A DNA stretch of 64,000 bases from Dioscorea cayenensis subsp. rotundata (Eukaryota; Streptophyta; Magnoliopsida; Dioscoreales; Dioscoreaceae). Below the pieces are notes generated by a model. It worked only from the letters and a program-made list of their open reading frames with translations, did not search any database and was not told the origin of the DNA. The stretch spans positions 29,071,916-29,135,915 of the forward strand of contig NC_052489.1 in the NCBI RefSeq assembly GCF_009730915.1, read 5' to 3'. The position numbers and the translations under genes are program-made. This document shows positions 6,901-35,344 of this stretch, in pieces; positions within the stretch are counted from its first letter, which is position 1, and every line of letters begins with the position of its first letter.

Positions 6901-9900
6901 CTTTAGTGTCACCTTCAATGGGTATATAATACTGAACTGCTTGTTCTTGTTTGTACAAAAGATTTCAGATTTCTTCTTGGCTTTATTATAGATTTTCCAG
7001 CTAATTTTTGTTCTTGTGACTATAGTTTAGTTTCCTTGATCATCCAGTGCAGATATGTGACAGATAAAGGACAAAGTTAAACCTCACTGTTGTTTATTTA
7101 AAAATAAAATTTTCACAGTATGCACACTTGCATTTTTATGCAGAAACTCCTGTTTAATCTCAATCTCTTATATATGATCCTTTTTCTTTTTTTCTTTTAT
7201 GCTTTTCTTAGTCAAATCTTAGCTTATAGCAACATCTTCTCAATGCTTTCAGAATGATGTATTTCATTTTGTTCGAATTGTTTGTCAAAATTACGTCATT
7301 GTAGTTATAAGCAGGTGATAATGGGATGAAGAAAATATCTCCTTCATACAGATCATGATCAGCAAATTGCTGCGGAAATTAAACATGAATTTTTTCTGAC
7401 AAAGTGGAAAGACACGTGGGCATCAGTCTGCTGCCAAATTTGGTTTTTGACGTCGATGGTTTTTCCATACTATAACTGTGAGTTTAACTTATCTAATTTT
7501 TTTGATCAAGTTCTCTCCTTCCATAGTGTAATGATCCTGTACTTTGCTGTCACCTTGCTTTAACTTTGGGCTTGACTGTAAAGTAACCATAGATAGGTCA
7601 ATCACTGTGTTATCAAAGAAAAAAACAATTCCAAGAGTTTGCTTTGACATTAATAGGGCATTACAGGTTCTATTGTAGCATATTTTCTTGTCATGACTCT
7701 TGATTCTTTATCTCCACAACTGCTTAATTACTCCGTGAAGTTTTAAAAGTTTTGGCAAGTTGAAATTCTCCGCACTTTGTGAAGTCCAATCTCTGAGGAT
7801 AAACTAATTCTCTTTGCTTTTGCGCTGCAGTTGATTGGAAGAATCGTCACATGCCTCCAGATAGCTTTCGCAATCACAATATTGAAGAAACAAAACTATG
7901 GTGTTTAAGGCTTCTAGGTAATTCATTTGAACATCTCCGTCAGGCAAGTCCTCAGCTGACCAATTTATTTTCTTATATAGTAAAACAACAAAGTGCCTGA
8001 CTAGTTTTTTCTCATGTCATGCTATTGTGCTTCATCAACTTTCTTCTGGTGAGCTCACTCTGTGTCAAGATTCCTAAAGCTTGGACAAGTGCGGGACTCT
8101 AATCCTTTCATGTAAGGATTTCTTTGCTTGAATTGATAATGTGATCTCTAGATGTCCTCAGTTAAAGCAACTGAATAGAGTGGTCAGTGGTAAGTGCAAT
8201 TATCCACACATTTACTCAGAAAGCATTCCATGTCTAAGTATGATCAGATATACTCCTGGACATCTCCAATTGTTGATTCCTTGATTCTTATGCTGAATGA
8301 TGGTACATTATCGCATTTCAAATGAGTTCAATACCGATTGGGTGCTTTTTCTTCAATGTTTTGACAATTTATTTGTGTGTTGCAGGTACTGTATTTTTTG
8401 CAAACAATAACCTATATTTTTTTCAAATATAATCACTCGTATTAGTATATAAAAGTAGAATTTAGAAATGTGACTAGTGAATACTCAGACTTTTGTTTCT
8501 TCAAAACAGCAATTTTTTTTTTTTTTTGATAAGGAAGCCAAAGGCTAACAAAAGAGCAAAAAAACTAGACTAACAACAGACTTAGAAATGAAGTTTGTGG
8601 AGCTCACAGAGCTCATCAATCCAAAAGGGACGCTCCATGCCTCTGAAGAATAGAGAGAGCTGCGGATTAAATCTCCCAAAGCTAGCAAGATGATCGGCGA
8701 AGCTGTTGAGATCTCTGGGGATAGTTTCGACTGTAACATTAGGGAACAAATCCAGATTCTTCCGCATTGTTTGAAAATCAGTGGAAACATGTCAGGCAAC
8801 GCTGGCATTGAAATGCTTTAGCAATTGAGCCACACCCGGACAATCACAGAAAACATGATCTGGGGTCCATCCACGAGCAATGCAGGTCCGAAAAGCAAGA
8901 TTGATAGCAGCGAGTTAAGCTTGGATTGGCGAGGAAGAACAGGTGCCCATCGAACCTGCAGAAAGAATATGATTTGAATTAGTGAGGATAATAAAGCCAA
9001 GGCCAGCACAAAGGGTACTGGCAGACCAAGAAGCATCAGTAAAGATAAGAGTGGATGCTCTGTTAGCACACAGGAGCGCCCGGTGCCAAGAAGATTTAAT
9101 CCGAAAATCAGAATAGAAGGACCAGGCGCGGGGGATGATCACAGAAGGATTAAAGGTCTCATTGTGAAAGACAAAATTGCATCGGAGTTTCCAAATGAGC
9201 CAGCAAACAGTTGCGATAAGGGCCTTAGCCCAAGGGTCCTTGATCACCACAAGCCAGAAACCTGAGCACAAAGAGTTGAGCAGATGTGAATTGAGACCAA
9301 TCATATTAAACAGATCATGCCAACAATGCAAAATTTTAGGACAATTCCAAATTATATGCTCAATAGTTTCAGCCTTCAACCTACAAAGAGGACACGGGTT
9401 GTTAGGGCCAATATTAAGATTGTAAAGATAAGCATAAGTAGGAAATTTGCCATGAGCAAGTTTCCAGAGATGCACTTTGATGCGGGGCATAACAGGAAGT
9501 CGCCAAATTTCCAACCAACCATCCCAGCAGTCCTGAATATAACTTTTGGAATTAAGGTGATTGTACACTGCAGGAGCAATAGATGCCTTGCAAGAAGAGG
9601 TGTTCCATTTCCAGACCAGAGTATTATCAGTATTGTAGTGAATATCGTTGATGTTGCTTAAATTAATAGAACTTCCAAACAAACTTTCCAAAGCAATAGG
9701 GCAAAAACCATCCGAAGAAAACAAATCCGAGAAATTTATGTCTTCCAAATTCAGAGAAGAGTTGAGAAATGTGGGTTTCTGAGAGATAGGAAGATCGAAA
9801 AAGCAAGCATTTTTCCAGATATCAACAAGATCAGGGCTGCAAGAAAGAAGTTTAATGTCCGATCTCAAAACTTACAAATGGATTTATAAAACCAAGAAGA

Positions 9901-11218
9901 GTTAGAGATATTTTCCGGATTCCAAAGACGCCAACCATTGTATTTGTTATGAAAGATGTTAACCCATATTTTATCATCAGAGTTCAAGATAGAAAAAATG
10001 TTTTTCGCCATGAGAGAATGATTCACAAGCCTAAGGTTACGGATACCAAGACCCCCCTCAAACTTACAAAGTGTAGTAACTGTCCAACCGATTGAGTGGA
10101 AACCCCTATTACTTCTGCTCCTACCCCAGAGAAAGTTCCGAGCATACTTGGAAATCATGTCTAAGATAGTAGCAGGGAGATTCATAACTGAAAGGATATA
10201 ATTGGGAATGGAAAAAACAGTGCTATTCAGAAGGGTTGTTCTACCAGCAAGGGAAAGGGAAGAATGATTCCATGAATGAATAATTTTATTAACTCTATCA
10301 GGGATAAATTGGAATTGATTAATTGTCAACCTTTTGGGAGAGATAGGGATCTCTAGATAGGTGAAAGGAAAGTTACCCAACTTGATGCCAAGGATTCTAG
10401 ATATGGCATTGGCTAGTAACTTATTACACCAAGAAGGTACAAAAACAGCAGACTTTAGAAGGTTTGGTTTTTGGCCAGTGAAAGCATGGTAAACATTGAG
10501 ACACAAGAGACAATTCCTGGCATTTCGCCTACTAGCCCTAGTGACAAGGATAAGGTCATCCGCAAACATTAGGTGGTTGAAGTTGTAGGTGAGGTCTTGG
10601 TTGAAGCCATGAATCATGTCCATTTGAAGAGCTTTGTTTAGAATGGCAGTGAGGTTCTGAGAGACAAGGATGAAGAGGAGAGGGGAGATGGGGTCACCTT
10701 GACGGACTCCCCTACTGCTCTTAATCCAGGAGGTGTTATGACCATTAACAAGAAAAGAGAAGAAGGATGAGGTAATGCAGGCATTAATCCAAGTAATCCA
10801 ATTTTCGGGGAAAAGCATTCTTCGGAGGGTAGCAATAATGGCGGCCCACTCAATAGTATCAAAGGCCTTTTCAATATCAATTTTGCAAATCATCCTAGGG
10901 GGAGTACCATTCTCATTTTCTATACTATGGACAATCTCCTGGGCTGCGATAGTATTATCAAAAGCGCCACGCCCAGGGATAAATCCAGATTGCTCGGGAC
11001 CAATAAGCTTATGAATCACTCTCTTAAGACGATTAGCAAGCATTTTAGTGATAATTTTGTACAAGAACTTGTTGTACAAGAACTTTGTGTAGGGGTGCAT
11101 GAAATACTCAGTTGTACTTGTATCATATTGGACTGAATTTCGCTGATTTGATTATTTATTTATTTATTTGCTTTTACAGGGTATATTCAGTGAAGAACAG
11201 ATACAAGATTGTGTTTAA
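906..11218 (+). CDS. Unrecognised split gene with TE-filled introns (probable)
   Basis: I do not recognise the product. Exon-like blocks are about 907-966 (Met-Thr-Thr start, basic stretch [10 protein letters not shown]), 1051-1257 (phase 0, Cys/His and Lys rich, including HRGPCTRC), 1348 to about 1501/1528 (phase 0, acidic, [12 protein letters not shown]), 1893-1944 ([14 protein letters not shown]), 7831-7943 ([13 protein letters not shown] and [18 protein letters not shown]) and 11180-11218 ([12 protein letters not shown], then TAA). The last three join in phase: 1944 ends with one base of a codon that 7831 completes, and 7943 ends on a codon border. The intron after 7943 starts CAG|GCAAGT, a GC-AG donor. 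The first donor (about 966) is weak, and the 1501/1528 to 1893 junction does not join in frame as I read it, so an exon is missing or mis-set there. The two large introns hold all the transposon debris of this region. Alternatively these could be pieces of two genes. Confidence 0.4.
2643..2692. repeat. Perfect 18-bp inverted repeat (hairpin)
   Basis: TCTATTTGGGGATGACAT at 2643-2660 is the exact reverse complement of 2675-2692, with a 14-base spacer. It lies in the integrase part of the gypsy relic and looks like a local inverted duplication made after the element decayed. Confidence 0.9.
3060..3600 (-). mobile_element. LINE reverse-transcriptase C-terminal fragment nested in the gypsy relic
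   Basis: The minus-strand reading from 3596 contains [30 protein letters not shown] and [16 protein letters not shown], the conserved stretch after the RT domain in plant non-LTR elements. After a frame break near 3260 it continues as [16 protein letters not shown] (about 3190-3140), the usual start of the zf-RVT/RNase H linker. No poly(A) tail or target duplication was recognised. Gypsy RNase H text ends just upstream (about 3600) and gypsy integrase text resumes just downstream (about 3010), so the LINE piece was inserted into an older gypsy copy. Confidence 0.75.
6059..6835 (+). repeat. Two direct copies of an LTR end, primer-binding site and gag start (517-bp offset)
   Basis: About 260 bp starting CTTAGTAGTTAGGTATTGGG at 6059 recurs at 6576 with roughly 95% identity by eye. 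Each copy runs through TCAATTATCAATAAATC into TGGTACCAAAGC or CGGTACCAAAGC, which resembles the TGGTATCAGAGC primer-binding site (initiator tRNA-Met) of many plant LTR elements. It then continues into a coding-like start, ATGATGGTTGCTAAGAAGATG ([10 protein letters not shown]). These are the 3' end of an LTR plus the gag start of an LTR element on the plus strand, opposite in orientation to the pol relic at 2.2-5.0 kb. The copies may result from unequal exchange or a tandem insertion. Confidence 0.7.
8512..11100 (-). mobile_element. 5'-truncated LINE (non-LTR retrotransposon)
   Basis: The minus strand encodes reverse transcriptase at 11100-9865: [41 protein letters not shown] and the catalytic FADD box ([11 protein letters not shown]), then [14 protein letters not shown] one-base-type break at about 9866 leads into 9868-8915, with a zf-RVT motif ([34 protein letters not shown]) and the RNase H start (FTDASWSAS). 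RNase H continues in other frames down to about 8530. The poly(A) tail appears as the T run at about 8512-8527. The endonuclease/ORF1 half is missing, so the copy is 5'-truncated and not autonomous. No clear target duplication was found. It sits within the GC-AG intron between host exons 7831-7943 and 11180-11218. Confidence 0.92.
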
Positions 11219-12763: not shown

Positions 12764-15198
12764 GTATGCTGAGCTTTTCTTCAGATTTGTTTCTTTCTTC
12801 TCTGTTAAATGGTCATGCTTTCATTTCAAAGGATTTGATGTATAAAAGTTGGATCTTTGTGATTGGTTTTGTTGAATTTGCGGGTTCTAATGGTTCATTG
12901 CTATAGCGTTTGATCCAAAAATAGTTGAATCATTATGAATGCTGATGCTTACTTTTTGGAATATTATGCTTCCATTAGATCGTGATTTTATTCAGAAAAA
13001 AAGTTTGATCTTGATTTCATTCAGAAAGGTTTGATTTTTGAATTGTTTTGGTGTCGTTGTCGTTGTGGTTTTGGATTGTTTCCTATGATGATCAATAGAA
13101 TACTTTCGTTCTCCCGAGGGTGAATGTTGCCCATGCGGAGTTATTTCTGGAGACCTGAACTGAGGAAACTAAACTCGTTTCTAAAGCCAAGGCTGCCAAT
13201 GCTTTGGGTAGTTTTTTTTTTCTTTGGGAGACGGGAAGTCCTCACTTCTTCTTTGATTCATATGCTAACTTTTTTTTCTCTATGGTTGATTTTTTTTTTT
13301 TTTTTAATAATCTGTATAAGTTTGTGTTGTGTCCTTATTTATGATTTCCCTGTTTTGATCCCTGTGATGATATCCATTTTAAATTAAAGTAGTGGTCTGA
13401 CAACAATATGGTGAATGGAATGTTTCTGAGGGGTTTTTTGTTAGGATATGCAACACCTAAACTTTCATTAGTTGTGCCACTTGCTTAAATATCCTCTCAA
13501 TGCTCTTTTATTATCCCTAATATGACTTTTTTTTTAAATTTACGCATACATTTACATGCATACAATCAAGACTAGGAGTTTTGGTTATTGCTTGGCCATT
13601 CTTATTGAACTTTTTTTCAGGAAAAATTATCTTAATGCTGTTGTTCTGAGGTGTTGTCTTCTCAATGCTTAAGGATATTCATAGTTGTGTTAATGATCTG
13701 CTAATAATATGTTCCTTGATTTTTTTATTATTGTGTGTCGTTGTTTCTGCTGTAATTTCCCAGTGATTTTAAAATACAAATGTTTCAGCCTTGTCTAAAC
13801 ATCAATGTTGAAAGTTTTAATTTTCTTCTGAGGGAGAGCAATTTTTTTACCGGTTTGGTGGTGTTCTTCAAATGGATGTTAATACATGTCTTAGTTGCAA
13901 CTCTGGTAGAAATTTTGGGGAAAAAAGATTTTGATTGATTAGCTATGTGAACGACTTGAGAAAAGAAGTTTCCCTTATATATATATCATTGCTTCTTCTA
14001 GTAGTTCCTCCTTATATATATATCATTGCTTCTTCTAGTAGTTCCTCCTTATATATATATCATTGCTTCTTCTAGTAGTTCCTGAGGAATACAAAGGAAT
14101 CATGTTGTGTATAAATAGGGAAAAATGATAACGGTTATAATTATAACGACTATATTTACAACGGCTATTTTTCAAATTTTAATTACCAACTGTTATAATC
14201 CAACGGTTATTTTTATTATGTAATAATTATTTATTATGCAAAACAAACACTCATTATGTAAGAAAAAAATATGTAATAATTTTTGTAATATTTTTTATTT
14301 TGTTACCCAAACACCTATTCTGTAGGAATAAAATATGCCATAATTTCTGTAATAATCACTTGCACTTCATGTATAATAAAATCATGACATATTTTTTTAT
14401 TTTCCATCCAAATATGCATTAAATAAGCTTTGGCAGAAGAACTTTTATTATTTGGCACGTGTCAAATTCACTTTGTTGCTTTAATATATATATATATAAT
14501 ATTTAATTAAAACTCAGTCTTAATCCTAATTCAATTCGGATAAATATTGTGCTAATTTATCTTTTAATTTAGATTAAGACTCAGCCTTAATTCTAATTCT
14601 ACTAAGATTAGAAAAGCCTAATTTATTTTCTATATATATTTATATACATAAATATGTATAATAGAGGAGCATTAATACATCAATCTCTTTCTCTCTCTCT
14701 CATCAACAAGAAGCGGCCTGCAATTGAAATCTCTCTCAAGTTTTTATTAAAAGTTCAATATTTTTTCCTTCTTAATTTTATGTATTAATTTTGTAAAAAA
14801 TACATCAAATTAACTCGTGAGGAGGATAATGCTTTTTTATGCATAAATTATGTATTGCTGTGCATATCCGTCAAACTATATATAATATTTTCAAATTTAT
14901 CAAGATTCATGTTGATCATTGATGATTCCTTTTTGTTTTTTGTTTTTTGTTTTTTTTTACACAATCATTCTGAGGAGATTTAAGCTTGCTTTTCAGAATT
15001 TTTTTGTTTTAATTTTTCTCAAATATTTCGATTCTAATTTGGGCCAAATAATAATTAAAAGTGTAATTAGGGTTTTTTTTTTCTATCTTTTGTCTCTGCA
15101 ATTTTATTTTTAATTTACGACGACTTTATCTTATCTTTTTGAATCTTATTTATTTATCTTATTCAATTCTGTCAGCATAATTGCTTACAAAGATAAAT
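12764..15198. other. Gene-free stretch with T-rich runs and a minisatellite
   Basis: Mostly T-rich, intron-like or intergenic DNA. It contains the 37-bp tandem repeat at 13974-14083. About 14.48-14.76 kb has a TATA-like run, a CT-rich patch and two related segments around AAAACTCAGTCTTAATCC and TAAGACTCAGCCTTAATTC. The latter could be an LTR remnant, but no boundaries can be set. Confidence 0.5.
13974..14083. repeat. Three tandem copies of a 37-bp unit
   Basis: Copies start at 13974, 14011 and 14048. Each is CTTATATATATATCATTGCT followed by TCTTCTAGTAGTTCCT(C). They are essentially identical, so the array is recent. Confidence 0.95.
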
Positions 15199-16593
15199 AT
15201 GGTTTTATGTTTTAAGTATGCGTTGTATATTGTTCATATATTCATATCCACAATTTCCAAAAATACTAAGATATTTAATTAGAAAAGAAAATTGTGTTCC
15301 TGTAGTTTTTAAAATAAGATTATCATATTAGGATGTGTGAATCTAAAATATATATGGTACATTAGTTTCTTTTGTCATTTTATATGAAAATCAAGCATGT
15401 ATGGCCAATATGATTTTATTTTCAATTTACAGATAGTTATGTAATTTATAGTTTTTCCAGATGATAAATGCAAAATGGCAATTTTAAACATTGTACATTC
15501 ACATCTTTGAGAAATGTTCATGTTTTGCGAAAGTTTTTTAATATATGCCTCTAGCATTAAAAAGAATTAAAGACATGAATAAATAAATAAGAGTTGGAGC
15601 AATGTATTTCTCTTCCTAAACTAAATGTAATTTGCAAAATTGAAGGTACAATGGCATATCGTCATGAGGTGCGGAGGGATGTCATAAGAGATGTCACAAA
15701 GTATTTACCACTTCAGGATTATATCCGTTTCGGTGCTATTCACCCTTCTTGGTCTGCAGTGGCTAAAGCAAGATATCGTCTTCCAGGAATCCCGTTATTA
15801 ATTGCCAATGATGATAACCCAAGAGGCAACCCAAGATTGTTCAACGTATTCAGTCAAAAATCTTATCCGTTAGATCTTCCTGATGGATATCATTGTTGTG
15901 GTTCATCTCGTGGTTGGTTACTAATAATGGATTTAAGCTTGAAAATGTGCTTGTGGAATCCTTTCTCTAAAACTCAGATCGAGCTACCTACATTCTTGTC
16001 GAGTGAAAGCGAATGTAGACGATATGAAAGCCTAGTCAGAGACACCAAACAAGCAGATGACCCTACAGATGTGATATTACGAGAAAGGCTTGTAGCTAGA
16101 GTTGTTTTATCAGCTGATCCCGAAAGGTGCTCGGATTTTGTTATTATGGTGATTGGCTTCTGCGCTTCAGAACTTAAATTCTGGAGGTTAGGTGATTCAT
16201 CTTGGACTCACATACCTAATGTTTGGTTTCTTGATGTTATATGGTACAATGGAGCATTTCATGGTTTGTCTACCCAAAAAGAAGTCTTTATGGTTTGTCT
16301 CACTCCAAAGTTGGAATTAAAGAAAGTTGCTTACTACCGGAATCCTTTTCCTTGCAACGTGAGATATTTAGTTGATTGCATGGGTGATTTATTGATTGTG
16401 GAGAGAAACACAAACCAAACATACACTATGCATACTTACACAAGCTCATTTTTGGTGTATAAATTGGATAAGAAAAGGATGGTGTTTAAGAAAGTGAAAA
16501 GTATTGGAGACCATGCTTTGTTTTTAGGAAGAAATCCTACCATCGCTATTCCGGCCAATAAATTTCCTGGATGTTTGAGTGACAGTATTTATT
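15199..16593 (+). repeat. Segmental duplication, intact copy (partner 24348-25890)
   Basis: From about 450 bp upstream of the F-box ATG (around TTAAGTATGCGTTGTATATT) into the coding region, this segment aligns with 24348-25890. Matches such as ATACTAAGATATTT and AATAAGAGTTGGAG occur upstream in both. Identity looks like 80-90% by eye. The second copy ends where the large MULE begins. Confidence 0.85.
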
Positions 16594-16748
16594 TCACAGA
16601 TAATGACCCTTTTATTTATCGTATATATAGATATGAAGATATTGGTCTCTACAATATGAAAAACAAGATATTTGAGATATTCCCTCCAAAACATATTTGT
16701 ATTACTTCACGATATCAACCATTATGGTTGGAAGCTTGTTTACAATAG
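15651..16748 (+). CDS. F-box/DUF295-type protein
   Basis: A single open frame of 365 aa from MAYRHEVRRDV. An upstream in-frame ATG at 15594 is possible, but homology with the second copy starts at the 15651 ATG, just after GAAG|GTACA. Residues about 8-45 (RDVIRDVTKYLPLQDYIRFG, then HPSWSAVAKA) fit a degenerate F-box. The rest has the DUF295 pattern: YHCCGSSRGWLLIMDLS, LWNPFSKTQIELPT, WRLGDSSWTHIP, then a C-terminal IYFTDNDP and GLYNMKNKIFEIFPP. Plant proteins of this class are thought to act as substrate adaptors of SCF ubiquitin ligases, and most have no known target. The frame is open throughout, while its duplicate at 24.8 kb is dead. A missing first exon cannot be excluded. Confidence 0.85.
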   Translation: MAYRHEVRRDVIRDVTKYLPLQDYIRFGAIHPSWSAVAKARYRLPGIPLLIANDDNPRGNPRLFNVFSQKSYPLDLPDGYHCCGSSRGWLLIMDLSLKMCLWNPFSKTQIELPTFLSSESECRRYESLVRDTKQADDPTDVILRERLVARVVLSADPERCSDFVIMVIGFCASELKFWRLGDSSWTHIPNVWFLDVIWYNGAFHGLSTQKEVFMVCLTPKLELKKVAYYRNPFPCNVRYLVDCMGDLLIVERNTNQTYTMHTYTSSFLVYKLDKKRMVFKKVKSIGDHALFLGRNPTIAIPANKFPGCLSDSIYFTDNDPFIYRIYRYEDIGLYNMKNKIFEIFPPKHICITSRYQPLWLEACLQ

Positions 16749-24825: not shown

Positions 24826-25890
24826 ATGGCATATTGCCTTGAGTCGTGGAAGGATATCATGAGAAGTATCACGAAGTATTTGCTTCTTCGAGATTATATT
24901 CAATTCGGTGCTATTCACCTTTCTTAGTCTGCAATTGCTAAAGCAAGATATCGTCTTTCAGGAATCCTGTTATTAATTGCCAATGATGATAACCCAAGAG
25001 GCTGTTGGGACGCAGTGGCTTAGGACCATAGTCCCACATCGCCTGTGGGAGACGCTTCCCTCTAGTTGATATACTACCACCAACCCTTCCCTGTAACTGC
25101 GGTTATGGAGAAGTTAGGGTGGTGGGTCCCTGTCTTAACAGAGGCGACCCTAAATTGTTCAATGTATTCAGTCAAAAGTCTTATCCGTTTGATCTTCTTG
25201 ATGGATATCATTGTTGTGGTTCATCTCGTGGTTGGTTACTAATAATGGATTTAAGCTTGAAAATGTACTTATTGAATCCTTTCTCTAAAACTCAAATTAA
25301 GCTACCTACATTCTTGTTTAGTGAAAAAGAATATAAAAGATATGAAGAAGTCGGTGGATACATGAATTGGCCTCCACCGGAGACTTGATTAGAAAAACTT
25401 ATAGGTAGAGTTGTTTTATCAGCTAATTTGAGAAAATGCTCGACTTTAGTTATAATTGTTATTAGCTTGGGCATGTCAAAATTTAAATTCTGGATGTCAG
25501 GTGATTCATCATGGACTGAGATTCGGGATTGTTTGTTTTATGATGTTATATGCTACAAAGGAGCATTCCATAATTTGTCGATTAAATTAGTTGTTTGTCA
25601 CGCTTTAAATTTGAAGTTAAATAAAAATTTGCTTATTTGCATAATCCTTTTTATTGAAACTCGAGATATTTTGTTATTTGCATGAGTGATTTATTAATTG
25701 TTAAAAAAATTCTGAACAAACATATACTATGCATATTTACGCAAGCATTTTTCAAGTTCATTAGTTGGATAAGAAAATAATGGAGCGTAGAAAAGTGAAA
25801 TGCATTGGAGATCATGCTTTATTTTTAGACAAAAATTCTACTATCATTATTCCAATCAATAAGTTTCTTGGATATTTAAGTAAATAATAT
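24826..25890 (+). pseudogene. F-box/DUF295 pseudogene
   Basis: Homologous to the intact gene at 15651-16748, starting ATGGCATATTGCC. A stop replaces Trp in the HPSWS block (CACCTTTCTTAGTCT, near 24926). The reading frame is split by a solo LTR at 25003-25140. Further stops and frameshifts occur near 25386 and beyond. After the counterpart of residue about 310 the gene ends at the left terminus of the MULE, and the 3' end is not found on its far side. It cannot make a functional protein. Confidence 0.9.
25003..25140 (+). mobile_element. Small solo LTR (TRIM-like), copy 2, with target duplication
   Basis: 138 bp, TGTTGGGACGCAGTGG ... CCTGTCTTAACA, flanked on both sides by GAGGC (24998-25002 and 25141-25145). 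The intact paralogue has a single AAGAGGCAACCC here, the exact empty site. Terminal TG...CA and the 5-bp duplication are diagnostic of LTR integration followed by LTR-LTR recombination. The inside includes CCCACATCGCCTGTGGGAG, an inverted-repeat word also present in copy 1. Confidence 0.93.
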
Positions 25891-25895
25891 TTAGT

Positions 25896-26080
25896 GGAAA
25901 TTGCCAAAAAAAACCCTTTAAGTTTGTAAAATTGCCAAAAACACCCCGTTAGTTTTGCAATCCCCAAAATCCCCCTCCTTTTAAACTCTATGTTTTTCAA
26001 ACCCCCAAACCACATAGCGGATGTGAGCGGAGTGAGTTTCAAATTTTTTTGGACGAAAATGCCCTTGCATGGGGAGTCGT
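25896..26080 (+). repeat. Left terminal inverted repeat region of the MULE
   Basis: GGAAATTGCCAAAAAAAACC at the start is followed by repeated short words AAAATTGCCAAAAACACCCC and CCCCAAAATCCCCCTCC, then GGACGAAAATGCCCTTGCATG. Such text is common in plant MULE termini. It starts exactly where homology to the F-box gene ends. Confidence 0.65.
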
Positions 26081-26819
26081 GGTGCATGACCATCTCGGCG
26101 ATTTGAGAGGAAGTGGGCGGTTTTCCGTAGGGGTAATCCCAAGAGGCAATTTATTGGAGCCGTTTATTTGCTTTTTTTCTCAACTCACGTCTTGACTTTT
26201 CCATTTCGAGTCGTCTCCGAAAGTTGTCTCTACCGCGAAGTCTCCGTAATTGGCATTTCATCGACTTTTCCCTTTCCACGGAATCTCGAAGGAGAAGTCC
26301 CCAGCGCAACTAGTTGGCATTTCATCGGTTCTGCAATCTAAGGTATTGAGTATGGTTTTTATGTTAAGCTGTTACATTACAAAGAAAGATTTTTTTCGGT
26401 TTTGTTTTGTGCTCTGTTTTTGTTGGAAGATATTGAAGTCTGCGAGTGGGATTTCTCAGTTTGGGGTTTTTGTTAGTCTTGCGGGGAGATTTCTCGGCTA
26501 GGGGTTTTTGTTTTTGTTTTGCATTTTTCAGTATGTATACACTATCGAAATAGTTTTTCGATTGTTATGATTTGTGTAATATTTATAATATACATTTCCC
26601 CTTTCGTTTGATATGGTTGCAGTTTTACAAATGAGGGTTGACGTTTAAGAAATGAGATGTTCTGAGTTTAAAAATTTGTTGTCTCTGTTTAAGTATTCTC
26701 GTCTCTGTTTAAAAAAATGGGTCTCTGTTTAACATGTTATATCTCTGTTTAATAAGCGAGAGTTCTACGTTTAAAAACCTTATATTTCCGCTTAAACTTT
26801 TTGTCAATCTCGCGTGTTG

Positions 26820-29025
26820 AATGTGTTGTTATTATCGCGAGGCTTGTGATTATGGCGGTCGACCTAGTTAATGGGCGATGCTATTTGGCACGGTTGTGGA
26901 GACCGTAGGCTGAATTGAAAGATAACATGACCCCTCGACCTTTGGGGAGATTATTCGAAGGACACCGTTTGCGGCGTTCATTTGGTGGAAGCTATATACC
27001 AAGAGAGGGCCCTTCTTGATTCTCTTTTTTGCAAAGATACGATGGTCGCACTCAATAAATTCGAGGATCGGGGAAAAGCTGCTGAGTTTCGGACCTCAAG
27101 ATGTGGCCCTCGTTCTTGATGCTGCGTTGCGATGGCGGCGCAGTGGTCTTCGGAAGAAGAAAACCCGGTCGGCGTTCGAAGGGTGGTATCTATCAAAGAC
27201 CCTACGAGAGACAGGAGACTCCATCAAGAGCACTCTGGTGCAACTTGTTCGACGAGAGGGAGAAGAAGATAATTTTGTCAAACTCACGATGGTGTACCTC
27301 ATGGGGGACGAGTCCTCTTCCCAAATACATCATGCTCGGTTCGAGCTGGATCGTTGATTACGTCGATGATCTACTAGCCATGGGAGGCGTCACGCGTAGG
27401 CGCAGGCGACGCACAAGTGGCTTATGGAGGATATTCCTAGCGGTCGCTCGAGTGCACGAGATAGATCTTGCGGGGAAGAAGACCAACACGAGGGGTAGAT
27501 TAAGGGTTGCTCGGTCGCGCTTAACGTCCGGTTTTCTGGTGGCCGGAGCGGGGAAGAAAGTCCGTTTCGCAAGATCCCAAGGATCTTTGTGCTACGGTGA
27601 AAGTACTTACAGGAAGCAGCTGACGGTAGAAAAGCGAGCTTGTCATCGCTCGATGGAAAAGAGGTAATAAATCATGGATAATGTTTAACATAAGTCTTTA
27701 ATGTTTAAACATTTTATTTAGCGTTTAACTTTAGTATTTACCGTTTAAAAACTTATTACATACTTGGTTTAAATATTTTTGTTCTCCGTTTAATTATATT
27801 CTATAACGTTTAAATATATAAACACTATGTTTAAATATAGTTTTTTTATAGTTTAAAAATGAATGATTTCACTGAAATTGTTTGGTTTTACATATGTTAG
27901 TTTCTCGAGATGGATTCCGTGAATCTTTGAAGAAGAAATATTTGTTGGGGCCAATCGAGCGGATGGATGCCATTGCTCCGGGAACCACTTGCTCGAAGGC
28001 GGGGATGAGAGGGCGGCCCTACATCGTGCGCGCTGAGACACCGTTCTCCTACTTCCGACCCTACCATGCGCCGCGATTCCTCGGCACGGAGAAGCCCTCC
28101 CCTACCCGGCGATTGCAGCAACCCCCCACCACGACAGCGACGGTCCCCGATTGTGGCGGCCCACGACCATGGTAGCCCCTCCCGGCCGTGGCGACCCACG
28201 GTGACATTAGGCGAAAGATGTCACGCAACTCTTATCTGAGCATGCCGGATATTGATGACCGAAGTTTCCTCGGCTTGTCGCTCGTGTTGAGTATCTGGAA
28301 GGGCGTTCGCGGCCATTGCGCCATCCCTCGAAAGAAAGCTGAAGCACCCGGGACGAGCGAGGCGTCGGAATTTGGCGACGAGCGACATCATCGGGAAGGT
28401 CGTTTCAAAGGCGGCCACATTCGAAGAGACTTGCGAAAAAGAGGAGAACAATCTGCCTCTGTCTCCAGCGTCGGGTGACGATGAAACAATAGCAACACCA
28501 TCGGTGATCTTTGTTGTTGAGAAGGACATCGTAGATGATGTGGCCGTTCTTGCTTGTTGAGAAGGTCGTTGACTCTCTTCTCGATGAAATCCTCGACCGG
28601 TGGAACCAGTTGCAGAGATGCGGCATCAAAGATGGGACCAGATCCACGAAGATCGAGAACAAGTTAAGGGTGTGTCTCGAATGATCTTTGTTGTCGTGGC
28701 CACGGTTGAGAAGATCGTCGAATCCGTTCTGCGTGGCCCGGTCGATACGCATGACCAAGCAGGACACAATCCCACCACAACAAGAACCATGTAAGGATGT
28801 GTATGCGGTTGATGTTATCGCCGTCGTCCCCGCATCGAAGGAAGATCTTTGCTGAAGACCCGAGCCGAGCAGCGAGAGAGATGATCGAGGCCCGATCAAA
28901 AATTGGACGAGACGGCTCGGAAAAGCTTTTTATTCGAAGAAGAAGAAATGGGTTGGCTCGAGTCGTCTTAACAAATCTGAGCGAGGGAGTTGATGAGGAT
29001 CTTCCTCAGTCTGCTCTATGGACGG
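26820..29025 (+). pseudogene. MULE-borne plant-mobile-domain/DUF1985-like protein, N-terminal part
   Basis: Reading across frames gives DMTPRPLGRLFEGHRLRRSF, LSFGPQDVALVLDAALRW, KKKTRSAFEGWYLSKT and DSIKSTLVQLVRREGEEDNF. It continues with KLTMVYLMGD, WIVDYVDDLLAMG, ATHKWLMEDIP and GKKVRF/YGESTYRKQ, up to a donor-like GAG|GTAATA near 27665. This is the pattern of mobile-domain/DUF1985 proteins carried by Ulp1-containing MULEs. A second block, 27.9-29.02 kb, has an acidic linker (EETCEKEENNLPLSPASGDD) and LDEILDRWNQLQRCGIKDG. It contains several frameshifts and stops. It lies upstream of, and was presumably spliced to, the C48 protease block at 29.22 kb. Family membership is inferred from pattern memory, so it is less certain than the protease. 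Confidence 0.55.
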
Positions 29026-29219
29026 GTAAGTGTAAAGTTTTTATGATATTGTTTAAATGTTTTATTATAGTGTTTAACTATTACCTAATAGTGTTTAATA
29101 CCTTTATGTTATTATTTAATTTGTCTACTTAACGTTTAATTATATATAATATCATGTAACAATTGATAATATCATTTAAATATTCTACAATATGGTCTTA
29201 TTATATACATTATCGTTTA

Positions 29220-29925
29220 ACCTCAACACATCGGGTGTGGAAGAATGAGCTGTCAGTACCACATGCGACAAATTATACATGCTGCTTGAGGGGAAGGAGA
29301 TGGTCACTGATGATGTGATGGGCGCTTTCGTATGCATAATACAAAAAGTCGGTGAGCGAAAGAGCCATATCCTTACTAGAAGCGCCTCCATCACCAGGAC
29401 CAGCTTACGTTTGTTTATGTCAAAGCGGGATGGCGCACATGACACAATTATGGCTATGATCGGGGATCTTGTGCATAAGCTGCATGAAGTTCAAATTGTC
29501 ATCCTCCCAGATAATCATAAATGGCCACTTCCATGTAGTCGTCCCCGGACAATGATAAACAAGAATACGAGGCGTTATTCTTCGTATCAGAGTGCGATAA
29601 GGACAGCGTTGGACATGGTAAGTTCTTTAATTATGTCAGATTAATATCTGTTTTGGTATTTAAATCGGTATTCTAATCTCGACTTGCATATCTCGGCAGT
29701 GAATCTATTCGACATTTAGTGTCGATATGGAGTTCGGCGAGTCGGCGACAACAAAAGTACCCACTCGTGCGCGACATAGAAACCCTGCACGCAAAAACAA
29801 GGAAGCGTCGATTGCGGCCCGTCTCGTCATGCGGTTTATCGAGCAATTACTTTAGGGGTGAGAAGTTACGACTCACCGAGCAGACGTTCCTTACCTCAGT
29901 TAAGGTATGTTACCCGCATACTTAA
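29220..29925 (+). pseudogene. MULE-borne C48 (Ulp1/SENP-like) cysteine protease domain
   Basis: MLLEGKEMVTDDVMGAFVCI (29279) begins the domain. A His block follows at about 29520 (NGHFHVVV in the first frame), then DNDKQEYE. The block with TTKYPLVRDIETLHAK (near 29749) leads to DCGP at about 29812 followed by VMRFIEQLL in a shifted frame, and ends KLRL..Q. His, the Asp of the DNDK word and the Cys of DCGP are the expected catalytic residues of C48 deSUMOylase-like enzymes. At least three frameshifts are needed to read it, so it is inactive as it stands. In Kaonashi-type MULEs this protease is encoded on the strand opposite the transposase, as here. Confidence 0.75.
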
Positions 29926-30391
29926 GGAGGGAGGGCGTCGGCGTCCCATGACAAAGGGGTCATCGCAAGCGGGTTAAATTTTTGGTTTTTGAAGAACATG
30001 TCCTGTATATCCGAATGTCGATTTTGTTTTCGAATGTAAATCGGACAAATTCAATTCATTGTTTTTCGTGTTCAAAGAGCATGACTTGTATATCTTAATG
30101 TAAATTTTGTTTGTTTTTCAATTGTAAAGGCGAGGTTAAATTTCATTCGGTTTCATTTCATTGTTTAATTTACGTTCTAATTGTGTACATTTCACTTTCA
30201 TTGTTTAAATATACTATATATCGTTTAAACATCGAGTTGAAATGTTTCAAATTCTGATAGTATCCGTTTAAAAATAACAATGTCTCGTTTAAATACATTC
30301 AATTCGATTGTAAAGAGTAAGAGTTTAAATATAGAAAGTTGCCCATCATACACGATGTTTCCCTACATCGTCGGTCGATATTTACTGATGC

Positions 30392-32480
30392 CTAGTCGCG
30401 ATAGTTTCATCTGAAGATCTACGATTGTGACCGGATCCATGGCGGTGCTGCAGATGTAACTCGCGGACATCAAAGCGCTTGCGACTCGATCCTCTTTCGT
30501 CTAGGCGCCCAGTGCCTTCGTCGCGGTCATGACGAAGCTCGATTTCCGTCGAAGGCTCATCGTCGGGTATGGGGAATATAGCTTCCTTATGCGTCGATTT
30601 GTAATTGTCGACGGTGAAGTACCCGCTAATAAATCGATGTACGTTGGTGTTTGTCTGCATTATTCTTTGCTTGAAATGTGTTTTGCAAGGGATACCATAA
30701 ACTGCCACCTACGACATGAACAAGTTACGATGGCGAGATCCATGGGAGTTGTTTGCCTTTGGTCGATCGCCCGTAGCGATCATCGACACGATCGACCAAC
30801 ACGAAGATTTCAGTCTGTCCTCAACAATGATCTCTACCTTCGAAATGTATGTGCGGGCGTAAATAGGGTCTCCCAGTTTGTTCGCTTTGTTCACGCCGGG
30901 TTACATAACATGCGCATCAACTTGAACTCGCAAATAAGGTTAAACAAAGACGATGATGGTTAAATAATTCATAAACATGGTTAAACATTATTGTAAATAT
31001 TTAAAACGAAAGGATTAATATTTAAAAGTCGGAAAAAGTTTAATTAAACAAAGATTGAGGATGTTTAAAGGGTAACACTAAATGTTAAGTGTAAACCAAC
31101 ATTCACAGACCTTATAGAGTCGACTATTTTTACGTCAGCGGTGAAATGACCCGAGCTTCCTTGATCCAAGCATTGAGCGACTCCGCGACGTTTGAATACA
31201 TCTCACCCCAACGATCACCTCCGAACGAAATAATTCGACCAATGTGCCATATCCGATTTGATTAATCAACCCAGTTGATGAGCTTGGGTGATGTGGTCTG
31301 CGATTCATTCACGGTATCATCGAAATCTTTTAGCCGTGGATGCTCACGCAATGCGGAAGCATATAGAACCGAGCACTCCTCCCTCGATGCCTTCCCAAGT
31401 CGACATTGGCTTTTCATAAAATTGGCCTCCAAATGTCGAAGGCAGTATGCATGTGGCGAAGAAGGGAAGACTCTCGCAATTGCGCTCACTGGGCCCTTGG
31501 ACTGTCCCAGAAGCGAAGGTAATTATCTCATGATAATCTCCATCCTCGTATAAAAGGCATCCCCTAACTTAGATATGAACTCAAGTCCGATTGGCATCGG
31601 TCTCGTTGTCGACTATCACGAAGGCGGCGTGGAAAAAAACCATTGTTTCCATCTTTCCCTGTGGCACCCGGTGAGTGTACCCCGATATTTTTCCAAGGAG
31701 GTGGGTACCGTCGAGAAAGCAATGACGCCCTGCAAGCCCTCTTGAATCCCACAATACACGCTTTGAAAGAAAAGAATGCACGTTTAAAAGCGATCACCGC
31801 TCTCTTTCCACGATCGCCTAGCCTGCAGGGATTTGTCTACGCCCACCTTATCCACATAGCAAAGCAAGCGATCGTGGTCGGAGATGTCAGCTGCAGTCGA
31901 GGATCACCCGGGTATGCTCTTTTCCCAACCAAGCACCTTGTATGGTATGTGGACACCATGTTCCCGCAACATGTCCTTCCGAATGTCGATGGCCTTGATC
32001 GAGGGGACGATCCTCGAGCTCACGAATCACTCGTGCGCTAACCCATTTTTGGGCGCTTTCGGATCGACGCCGAACCTATGCCACCACCGCAAGTGTGTGA
32101 CGGGTTGATTGTCTTGATTCGAAAAGTATTTTTGTTATACTCTTTTTGATGCATGAAGGCGCTGATGATAACCATCGGCAGCATTCCACCGTCGCTCGAT
32201 GTTTTTTTCGTTCTTTATGAATTTGAAGTCAAAATTCCTTTTGATTGCATGATTTTGAAAGTACATCCACGAAATGTTCGACACCGTCAAAAGCGTTATC
32301 GATATCCAGCGAAAGCACTTGGAATGATCGACGAGGAAGGAAGACATCCCACGCCGTCGAGTCGCCCATGGGAATGAGCTGGAGCACTCGCGAGAATCGA
32401 ATTCCCGCCGACACTTCGATCGAATGAAAAGATCGATATGTTAAGCGGAGAATATAATGTTTAAGTGATAATGACAATAT
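30392..32480 (-). pseudogene. MuDR-type transposase pseudogene with SWIM zinc finger
   Basis: On the minus strand the order is as follows. MPRRSFQVLSLDIDNAFDGV and KSCNQKEFDFKFIKNEKN (32.37-32.20 kb) form the N-terminal part. SSRIVPSIKAIDIRKDML (about 32.0 kb) is the 'KD/DIRRD' region. The catalytic core starts at DGTHLLGK.RGT, with KDGNNGFFPRRL and VIVDNETDAN (31.75-31.58 kb). Then come MSAIARVFPSSPHAYCLRHL and EANFMKSQCRLGKA (31.49-31.36 kb), the hallmark HxYCxRHLxxNF segment. The SWIM motif (VAVYGIPCKTH...MQTNT, about 30.7 kb) and a C-terminal tail follow. AT-rich spacers at 30.96-31.09 and 32.44-32.6 kb may be introns. Frameshifts occur in the core. It would have bound element ends and catalysed transposition. 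Confidence 0.85.
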
Positions 32481-32981
32481 TTAAACGTTAAATTAAATAC
32501 TTAAGCGATTAACTAATAACGTAAACGACTAGTACAAGATTTTAATTAGTGACGGACATATTTAAACACTAATGACCCCAAACAACTGGAACAATTAAAA
32601 GAGAAGGAACTTCTAACGAGTAAAACTCGTTTTTCATTAGGATTCAGCAATGGCACATTTTACGTCTCGACGACAAAATCAACTACAACACATTTTGAAG
32701 ATGGTGTGCACGTGACACATCCAGCTGGAAGTCGACATCGTTTTCTATTAGGGCGAAACCGTTTTTATATCCATCCGGTGTGATGAACTTAACCCCGACA
32801 ATAGAAACTTGAGACCCCATCGCTCACAAATCTCGACTAACACCAACTCCCAAGAAGTCTGAGCCGTGAACATTAGCACTCTACCCTCCCCGTTGAATCT
32901 AGCAATACCACAAAAACTCTCCATAATATATCGGCCGAAAACCAAATCGTACAAACCAAATGAAATGAAGAACAAAAATAA

Positions 32982-33019
32982 GCCGAAGAAGAAGAAGAAG
33001 AAGTAGAAGAAGAAGAAGA
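32982..33019. repeat. (GAA)n-type simple repeat
   Basis: AAGCCGAAGAAGAAGAAGAA and onward with one TAG interruption, within the MULE upstream of the transposase. Confidence 0.9.
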
Positions 33020-33221
33020 TGTAAACAACAAACAGCAGTCAGATAGGCAAACAAAAAAAGTGCATATATATATATTACTATCGCGATGAAGACAAAAAAG
33101 TGCATAGAGGTTAGACTAGACGTGATGTGATTGGGCGGTATTTTTCCCTCCATCCCAAGGGCAAAAAAGTAAAAATATATGTCACTGTCGCGATGAAGAC
33201 ATATTATCATCGCTCGACATG

Positions 33222-33560
33222 AGTATCTGTTTAAACGTACAGTATTTTATGTTTAAACGGATAGATATAGTGTTTAACATAACGATTACCGGTTTAAATA
33301 AAGTCTATATCATGTAAATAATACGTAAACCGTTTAAATAAAGTTATTTAACTGTTTAAAATATATGTTATTGTTTAAATTGAATGCTTTCACTGACATC
33401 GCGTTGAAGATGGGTACCTCCTGGGTCACTGTTTAAACATTTTTACGTATTTTCTTAAACACCGTTGTCATTGTTTAAAGAGTAACTAGAGTATTGTTTA
33501 CACCGTTGTCATTGTTTAAAGAGTAACTTTTTCTTAAACACCATTGTCACTGTTTAAACA
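33222..33560. repeat. AT-rich spacer dense in GTTTAA words
   Basis: Eleven GTTTAA words occur within about 340 bp, several extending to GTTTAAAC. Two near-identical 27-base segments, ACACCGTTGTCATTGTTTAA(AGAGTAA), lie at about 33461 and 33500. The same word fills other spacers of the element at 26.68-26.79, 27.69-27.85, 29.03-29.2, 30.16-30.3 kb and, as TTAAAC, 32.44-32.6 and 34.65-34.77 kb. Confidence 0.9.
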
Positions 33561-33779
33561 TATTTACATATTTTCTATTGTTTACTGATGAGCGTTCTTT
33601 TTGTTTCCCACATTGTTTTTTTACTAGGTCTCTGTTTAAATTTCGAAGTTCACATTCAAATAAGCTTGTTTCGTTTTTATTTATAAAAGATTTACAACAT
33701 TTACAACATTTACAACGTCCTCTCGAACTTTGATCACTCACGACTCGACCCTTGTATAACGAAACAAGTGTTTGTACAT

Positions 33780-34950
33780 TCGAATGCTCACAGCGGTTGC
33801 ATAACATGCGCATCAACTTGAACCTCGCATAACGTCATGACATTAAAAAAAGGTTAAACAAACACATTCATGAAAACGACTATTAATCAATGTGTCATGG
33901 TCGGATTAAGCGAAGATCCTGATAGTTAAACACATAACGTAATAGTTGTACACTGACGTAATGTTCTTAAACAGAATGTGAAAAAATCTCAGTGATAAAA
34001 TATCAACCCCGTCTTAAAGGATGTTTCTCGATCTCCTCCTCTGAGAATCCTCCCTGAATCACGAAAATACGTGAAAAACTTTCTTTTCTTACCCAAGTCG
34101 AAATGCTCGCTAATTGCTTGCCCGTCGTCCACCGTGAAGAATCCTTCTGCATTCGAGCGATTATGAGAGCATTTCGACTCAAGCGAAAAAGATAGTTTAA
34201 CTTGTTGCGTGATTGCGGCTAAATAATTCTCAAGATAAGGGAAGAAGGTTCACGAAAACATCATTTCGAGATAGAGTGGTTGCCAGTGGGAAGAGGAGGG
34301 ACGAGGAGGAGGAGGATGATGAGGGACGACGTAAGAGTGGTCATGTCCGTGGGGAGGGTTCTTCCCGGTTATTTATGGTGTGAATTCCACAAGCGGTCGA
34401 CTCTTCATATCCGAGAAAAAGTTAAACGCACGATAGGCCGACATTGATCGAGTGAGAACGAGCGGGTGTTCGGATATTTATATTCGCGCATAAGAATTAA
34501 TGACGGCATTAATTCTTATCGACGGGATACTATAACCTTGCCACCCTGCCCGCTGCACCGCCAACGATTCGGATCAAAGCGAAAAAGATCTCCGTTTTAC
34601 GCAGAGACTTTGATAATTTACTCATTAATATTAATAGTTATACATGTAAAGATAATGCTAAACGGAGATGGCAAGTATTAAACGGATATGACAATTATTA
34701 AACATATTAGTAATATATTTAAAGCGGATAATAGCAAATAGTTAAACATTATTTAAACAATAGTTCTTCTCGTCGTAATACAACTTTACAACCATAAACG
34801 AGAAGACGACAATGGCACATCGTCGTGTCTCGACAATAAAATCGACTACAGCTCATTTGAAGATGAAGTGCACTTGACCAATCCGATGGAAATCAATTTC
34901 ATTTTCTGTTTGAGAAACCGATTTATATATTTTGGGTATGATAATGAGGA
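33780..34950. repeat. Partial internal duplication of the MULE (partner pieces at 30.55-30.96 and 32.65-32.79 kb)
   Basis: CATAACATGCGCATCAACTT occurs at about 30905 and 33800. The block around CAATGGCACAT.. GTCTCGAC.A.AAAATC.ACTAC (32648-32790) recurs at 34812-34945 with many substitutions. The order of pieces is the same on both sides, but most of the transposase core is absent from the second set. This suggests a deletion derivative next to, or nested in, the main copy. Confidence 0.6.
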
Positions 34951-35344
34951 GAACAACAAGATGTAATGCAACTCCTGGCATTGTCTATCGAAACCAAGCG
35001 AAAGTCCCTTCAAAAGGTTGAATATGATGTTATTTAGGCTTTCTTTCCCACCATTTTCAAGCCTAAAAATGAGATTTCACAACATGACCCATTTAAGTGA
35101 GCGGTAGGGGGTAAAGAGAAGTTAAACACTAACTGAAGAATCGTCCAAAGTGTGTAAAATTAGGAGGGAATTTTTGGGAAGTTTTGAAAATTACGATGGG
35201 TGAACAGTAATTCCCTTATAAATATAAGGTTTCAAATTTCAATCATCTTTACTTTTCTTTTCTTTCTAAATATATCTAATGGTAACCAACTAAATGTGAT
35301 GCGACCTAACTGAGCACACACAAAGGACTTATTTCACATGCGTC

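Follow-up and report, generated by a model that had tools for sequence, protein, structure and literature searches.

The stretch analysed here, hereafter the window, comprises 64,000 nucleotides of contig NC_052489.1 of Dioscorea cayenensis subsp. rotundata (positions 29,071,916 to 29,135,915), and it contains a dead Mutator-like transposon of 9.3 kb, a decayed copy of a multi-copy family, in which two genes face each other and short GTTTAA motifs recur at regular spacing. Alignment of sister copies placed this element at 25894 to approximately 35215, in good agreement with the interval 25896-35215 proposed in an earlier note, which had nevertheless overlooked both the broken reading frames of this copy and the GTTTAA arrays. 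The left terminus (25894-25905, plus strand) reads GTGGAAATTGCC, the right terminus (35199-35215, plus strand) ends in ACAGTAATTTTCCC or a close variant in the copies sharing it, and beyond both ends the flanks of the copies are unrelated. Only a short degenerate match, judged by eye, links the left terminus to the reverse complement of the right one, and of the 31 inverted pairs of at least 20 bases, 25 were listed and none of these connects the two termini. The right end was recovered in 10 of the 20 sister copies, L009 lacks the left end, and at the right side of the element most long matches stop at 35212. It should be noted that some 267 bp (34724-34990) are missing from nine matches to that right part, which suggests a subfamily with an internal deletion.

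Insertion of the family creates a 9-bp target-site duplication. The 9-mers flanking the copies agreed at 65 of 90 positions, versus 50.5 in permuted pairs, the observed 65 being reached by 4 of 5,000 permutations, and among the lengths of 7 to 11 tried a clear excess was seen only at 9. Agreement was complete in L011 (of low complexity), L015 and L020, reached 8/9 in L022 and L023 and 7/9 in L025, and was weaker in the window (6/9), L016 and L027 (4/9 each) and L024 (1/9). These figures concern the 10 of 21 rows in which both ends were usable. The 11 others were dropped because the left end was missing (L009), because the right-end pattern matched an internal place (L010, L014) or because no right end was found (L012, L013, L017, L018, L019, L021, L026, L028).

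Sister copies were sought in the whole genome (584 Mb, 2,249 contigs). A DNA search with positions 26800-29900 gave 71 matches from the best 40 of 2,454 first-look candidates scored, so that the copy number of the family is a lower bound. Twenty copies (L009-L028), picked by their plus-strand gene, were aligned, three of them (L012, L021, L026) after shortening by hand. Identity ranges from 0.83 to 0.93 with the window and from 0.81 to 0.93 among the copies themselves, with little structure, which suggests that the copies arose in one burst and then decayed. Regions of both genes were found together in 18 of the 20 copies (only part of the transposase being spanned in L012, and none in L021 and L026), so that the two genes are not always apart, in line with the opposed pair that the earlier note had assigned to one element. 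The copies yielded the ends of the element, but no intact one was found among the 20: the longest frame inside the element does not exceed 313 aa, longer frames of L026 falling outside its matched part, while L018, L019 and L021 each include 1,000 unread bases.

The minus-strand gene is a MuDR-type transposase. Its SWIM and zinc-knuckle part lies at 30385-30925 and its DBD_Tnp_Mut and MULE domains at 31110-32440. The latter two assignments come from Pfam scans of 10 frames from 6 sister copies selected for open frames, in which MULE (3.7e-20, L012) and DBD_Tnp_Mut (5.3e-22, L028) exceeded the cut-off, both remaining below it in L025. The SWIM domain expected on this strand was likewise detected, in two of three stretches tried (5.3e-11 in L025, 3.5e-10 in L012), and was absent from that of L028, where the knuckle was recognised by eye. 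In the window itself, the HxYCLRHL motif given in the earlier note is present as PHAYCLRHL in the open reading frame at 31262-31522. A six-frame scan of the window copy, with stops read as X, gave no match to Peptidase_C48, MULE or SWIM, and only Transposase_mut below cut-off (E 0.061); further window pieces scanned against Pfam gave no such domain either. This nearly empty result is due to the broken frames. Recognition of both genes by Pfam holds for chosen sister copies, in which Peptidase_C48, MULE and SWIM all exceed the cut-off, and fails for the window copy. Other types of DNA transposon were set aside, the transposase matches being of Mutator type.

The plus-strand gene was assembled from four exons: a DUF1985/plant mobile domain (PMD) exon at 26852-27663, with approximate limits and a frame broken in the window; a variable linker exon at 27925-29025, delimited by open reading frames and GT/AG signals; and two Peptidase_C48 exons, again with approximate limits, carrying the catalytic His and Asp region (29240-29617) and the catalytic Cys region (29700-29925). 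DUF1985 exceeded the cut-off in two copies of the family, at the place equivalent to window positions of about 27055-27420. In the related locus L036, whose DNA identity to the window is 89% along 1.95 kb and falls to 81% in the following 0.9 kb, the exon is open and matches both DUF1985 (3.6e-9) and PMD (5.3e-13), overlapping and over cut-off. The DUF1985-like or mobile-domain region proposed upstream of the protease is thereby confirmed. A genome search with DUF1985 gave at least 150 matches (best 150 of 455 candidates scored). In the protein of L032, a member of a second clade described below, only DUF1985 exceeded the cut-off (PMD 0.0027), and among eight aligned relatives at E 0.01, DUF1985 matched all eight and PMD seven. 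As the same proteins match both families, DUF1985 and PMD may be homologous. Solved structures matching the DUF1985 alignment were sought at E up to 1, and none was obtained.

The linker contains a repeat unit some 80 bp long in DNA (a peptide of about 27 aa in L023), single in the window and doubled in many copies: two units were counted in 9 of the 20 copies, one in 8 and none in 3, and a break in the alignment suggests a second unit in three more (L020, L021, L027). For the protease, all three spliced readings chosen for open frames matched Peptidase_C48 (9.3e-8, 3.6e-6 and 8.5e-5), while the single unspliced exon of L012 stayed below cut-off (0.044). In an alignment with SENP1, itself a weak match (E 0.31), an H, a D, a Q and a C line up, which we take to be the catalytic residues. 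The GHFHV histidine block had been correctly identified in the earlier note, but the DCGP that it gives for the cysteine block is particular to the window copy: L020, L025 and L028 have DCAVYVMRFIEQLL there, L010, L011, L012 and L026 have almost that sequence, and the stretch is shifted or altered in the other copies. The plus-strand gene encoded a DUF1985/PMD protein with a C-terminal Ulp1 protease, of KIU/VANC type. The idea of a merely captured passenger protease was set aside, as the readings that were inspected preserve the catalytic residues. As a two-gene Mutator-like element (MULE) whose MuDR-type transposase is opposed to a DUF1985-Ulp1 gene, with degenerate ends and target duplications of 9 bp, the element fits the description of the Kaonashi type that had been suggested.

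The non-coding parts of this element are filled with GTTTAA. Array 1 (26643-26774, 7 sites) lies upstream of the plus-strand gene, array 2 (27683-27856, 9 sites) in the intron following the DUF1985 exon, array 3 (29051-29220, 5 sites) in the intron preceding the protease exons and array 4 (30163-30328, 6 sites) between the two genes, all on the plus strand. Array 5 (33229-33639) has 12 plus-strand sites upstream of the transposase, with some reverse sites mixed in, and array 6 (34678-34758), near the right end, consists of 4 sites in the opposite orientation (TTAAAC). In total, 44 plus-strand GTTTAA were counted in the element, whereas 200 shuffled versions gave 4.8 on average and never more than 10. 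On both strands, non-coding DNA holds 61 in 4,923 bp (mean 8.4 and maximum 20 in 300 shuffles), and exons hold 1 in 4,401 bp, versus a shuffled mean of 1.5. In the rest of the window, two stretches of 10 kb showed no hexamer arrayed in this way.

The spacing of these sites is phased. Pairs on the same strand fall at lags of 20-23 (21 pairs), 40-43 (19) and 60-63 bp (12), with 0-3 in each intervening bin, and in all 21 rows the count at lags 19-22 was above those of all 500 jittered controls, in which sites were moved by up to 10 bases. The best common period, calculated from 230 site pairs in the four loci of clade 1 (defined below), is 20.5 bp, close to two turns of the helix; successive spacings in one array of L035 are indeed 20, 20, 20, 21, 20, 20, 21 and 20. 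Within an array the hexamer is fixed, and most spacer positions vary.

The motif, in turn, differs between clades of DUF1985 loci. Ten loci were compared over the 400 bp preceding the start codon and the 300 bp following the DUF1985 exon. Clade 1 (the window, L031, L035 and L036) has 16, 10, 12 and 13 GTTTAA and only 1, 1, 1 and 0 TGTGTA. By contrast, clade 2 (L030, L032) has no GTTTAA in either locus, and 7 and 8 TGTGTA, mostly 20-21 or 40-41 bp apart, so that TGTGTA(TA) occupies equivalent places with a spacing similar to that of GTTTAA in clade 1. A tree of eight proteins supports clades 1 and 3, the latter being described below, with L032 as the sole clade-2 member; the window and L030 were left out of it for their broken frames, and L032 and L029 form long branches. 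L034 is the L032 locus with more flanking sequence and was not counted apart. In this longer version (G000:C6:6796100-6806000), the clade-2 DUF1985 exon holds an open frame of 289 aa and is accompanied by a TGTGTATA array of its own. Beyond a 123-aa frame that directly follows the exon, the vicinity offers no transposase-like frame of at least 110 aa, and the neighbour is presumably an ERF-like gene. L034 may be a shortened copy or a co-opted gene.

Several known systems resemble this organisation. In Arabidopsis, Kaonashi (KI)/KIU elements are likewise MULEs without terminal inverted repeats (TIRs), with an Ulp1 (C48) gene in reverse orientation to a mudrA-type transposase (PMC2528002, PMC13317346); they belong to another genome, GTTTAA at about 20.5 bp is not mentioned in the portions of these papers available, and the likeness is one of description. 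Downstream of the transposase, Mutavine MULEs of grapevine have a ULP1-like region, which occurs in either orientation and in TIR as well as non-TIR elements, one non-TIR family showing clear 9-nt target-site duplications; this likeness, too, is by description, and motif arrays do not appear in the available part of that report (PMC2528002). VANDAL21 and VANDAL6 share with the yam element a DUF1985 protein, short one-orientation motif arrays in non-coding DNA and peptide repeats in a variable region (PMC5735166). As excerpted there, VANCs carry DUF1985 and variable regions, the latter often with tandem peptide motifs, and the motif bound by VANC21 has nine bases and is arrayed in one orientation along the introns and the intergenic and terminal non-coding DNA of VANDAL21, its binding bringing loss of DNA methylation at VANDAL21 targets (PMC5735166). 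Related families use different motifs there, VANC6 targeting another motif than VANC21, as do clades 1 and 2 here. The motifs themselves differ, YAGTATTAY and AGTTGTCC/AGTTGTAC in VANDALs versus GTTTAA and TGTGTA(TA) here, and the yam element has an Ulp1 domain, whereas the term Ulp goes unmentioned in the paper on VANDALs (PMC5735166). Elsewhere, VANC targets are described as contested by RNA-directed methylation and VANDAL termini as degenerate (PMC10398659), and VANC genes with Ulp1 as KIU genes, whose elements use specific motifs too, the role of Ulp1 being called unknown in the part available (PMC13317346).

In the yam family, the VANC-like layout in one orientation is found in arrays 1 to 4, and the right third of the element is mixed. 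As clade 1 displays those features of VANC systems that were tested at the sequence level, we consider it likely that the element carried a DUF1985-Ulp1 anti-silencing system, of KIU/VANC type, whose protein bound the arrays. Specificity in such systems is reportedly tied to the sequence, density and helical periodicity of the motif (Sasaki et al., 2022). From a mechanistic point of view, the DUF1985-Ulp1 protein would have bound GTTTAA cooperatively, on one face of the helix and about every two turns, in the introns, intergenic stretch and leaders of the element, and this binding would have cleared all array-bearing copies of silencing marks. The action of its protease domain may have been local to the array, perhaps the removal of a ubiquitin-like modifier from factors of the silencing machinery. 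The open-access literature searched, as far as its partial texts extend, mentions neither arrays of GTTTAA nor a link between DUF1985 and PMD.

Several observations nevertheless weigh against this interpretation. GTTTAA is short and AT-rich, and the exon model underlying its near-confinement to non-coding DNA was our own, based on frames, Pfam matches and GT/AG signals and drawn after the arrays were known. In the element, 18 of 62 sites are in reverse orientation only, chiefly in the right third, where both orientations occur. The arrays shared by sister copies look like a single event, since these copies form one family, which leaves L031, L035, L036 and the clade-2 pair of loci as separate evidence; the period that fits clade 2 best, 21.15 bp, is calculated from 15 pairs only and is less sharp. 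Clade 3 (L029, L033, L037, L038) has DUF1985, in L033 together with an opposed transposase, and contains no GTTTAA in any of its four loci and 0, 3, 2 and 2 TGTGTA, not arrayed. Not every DUF1985 element of this genome, therefore, has the array layout or the motif. Finally, KIU proteases have been called unlikely to act on SUMO, in the section available (PMC6117577). As a separate observation on clade 3, a few 27-bp tandem units (beginning TGTGTTTGCAGAATTTT) take the place of 20-bp arrays upstream of the gene, in the leader, at positions 4131-4210 of L033, with similar units in L037 and L038.

Subterminal motifs serve as transposase binding sites in CACTA elements, and the arrays could similarly be sites of the element's own transposase, for transposition or self-regulation, the DUF1985-Ulp1 protein doing something else. 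Some arrays do lie in the outer 1-2 kb, and orientation flips near the right end, but others occupy interior introns and the intergenic stretch, and the protein binding arrays of this kind in Arabidopsis is VANC21, according to the text available (PMC5735166). We regard this explanation as unlikely, although it fares best among the alternatives.

Slightly less probable still, in our view, is an origin of the arrays as a by-product, in which AT-rich units of introns slipped and were duplicated in tandem and no protein was bound to them. Clade-1 spacers are indeed more alike than shuffled ones (0.36 versus 0.32 in the element, 0.49 versus 0.36 in L031, 0.45 versus 0.34 in L035 and 0.40 versus 0.32 in L036), so that part of the arrays may derive from tandem duplication, which also counts against the favoured interpretation. 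A tandem duplication of about 0.8 kb in L035 (positions 1427-2801) moreover doubles the end of the DUF1985 exon and the whole intron array, a possible route of array expansion. Against a by-product, the hexamer is fixed within an array while most spacer positions vary, and the arrays avoid exons but recur in a number of distinct non-coding segments; in clade 2 no excess likeness of spacers over shuffled ones was seen, and two clades have different motifs at equivalent places with similar spacing. A host-facing role of the arrays, in nucleosome phasing or as small-RNA sources, with Ulp1 as a captured passenger without function, appears the most improbable, since the conserved catalytic residues noted above and the finding, reported in the available part of a review (PMC13317346), that the Ulp1 domain is strongly conserved among elements of eudicots oppose it, even though Arabidopsis KIU expression is described, in the extract at hand, as low or undetectable and KIU proteases as distant from SUMO proteases (PMC6117577).

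The DUF1985-Ulp1 anti-silencing interpretation is retained as the likely one, and a more tentative proposal concerns the origin of the domain. The N-terminal domain of L036 exceeds the cut-off of PMD, the domain of MAIN/MAIL1 and of PMD-C proteins captured by MULEs. MAIN and MAIL1 are, according to the excerpt available, host silencing factors (PMC5418596), whereas here the domain belongs to a transposon gene, is accompanied by Ulp1 and matches DUF1985 as well. That MULE-captured PMDs serve anti-silencing was speculated by Ikeda et al. (2017), in the part of their article available (PMC5418596), and the double match of L036 fits this speculation. It is conceivable, though we would not put it beyond a minority view, that DUF1985 of transposon anti-silencing proteins and PMD of MAIN/MAIL1 are one domain family which this element family bridges, the same fold acting on opposite sides of silencing and helically phased arrays constituting the address code of the transposon.

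The surroundings of the element in the window include other features. Frames encoding KIB1-4 beta-propellers lie at 25032-25385 and 15591-16748, the shorter, partial one adjoining the left side of the transposon. Two minus-strand frames at 8915-11151 carry reverse transcriptase and zf-RVT domains, as in a LINE-like element, and a 37-bp unit is repeated three times, with a 100% match, at 13973-14083.

These results suggest that the address code of transposon anti-silencing, made of motif, spacing and place, can be read from sequence alone, even where every copy is dead, and that one motif can replace another at the sites with little alteration of the spacing. They supply exact, testable motifs for DUF1985 proteins and hint that the anti-silencer of a transposon and the silencing factors of the host may be linked in evolution.

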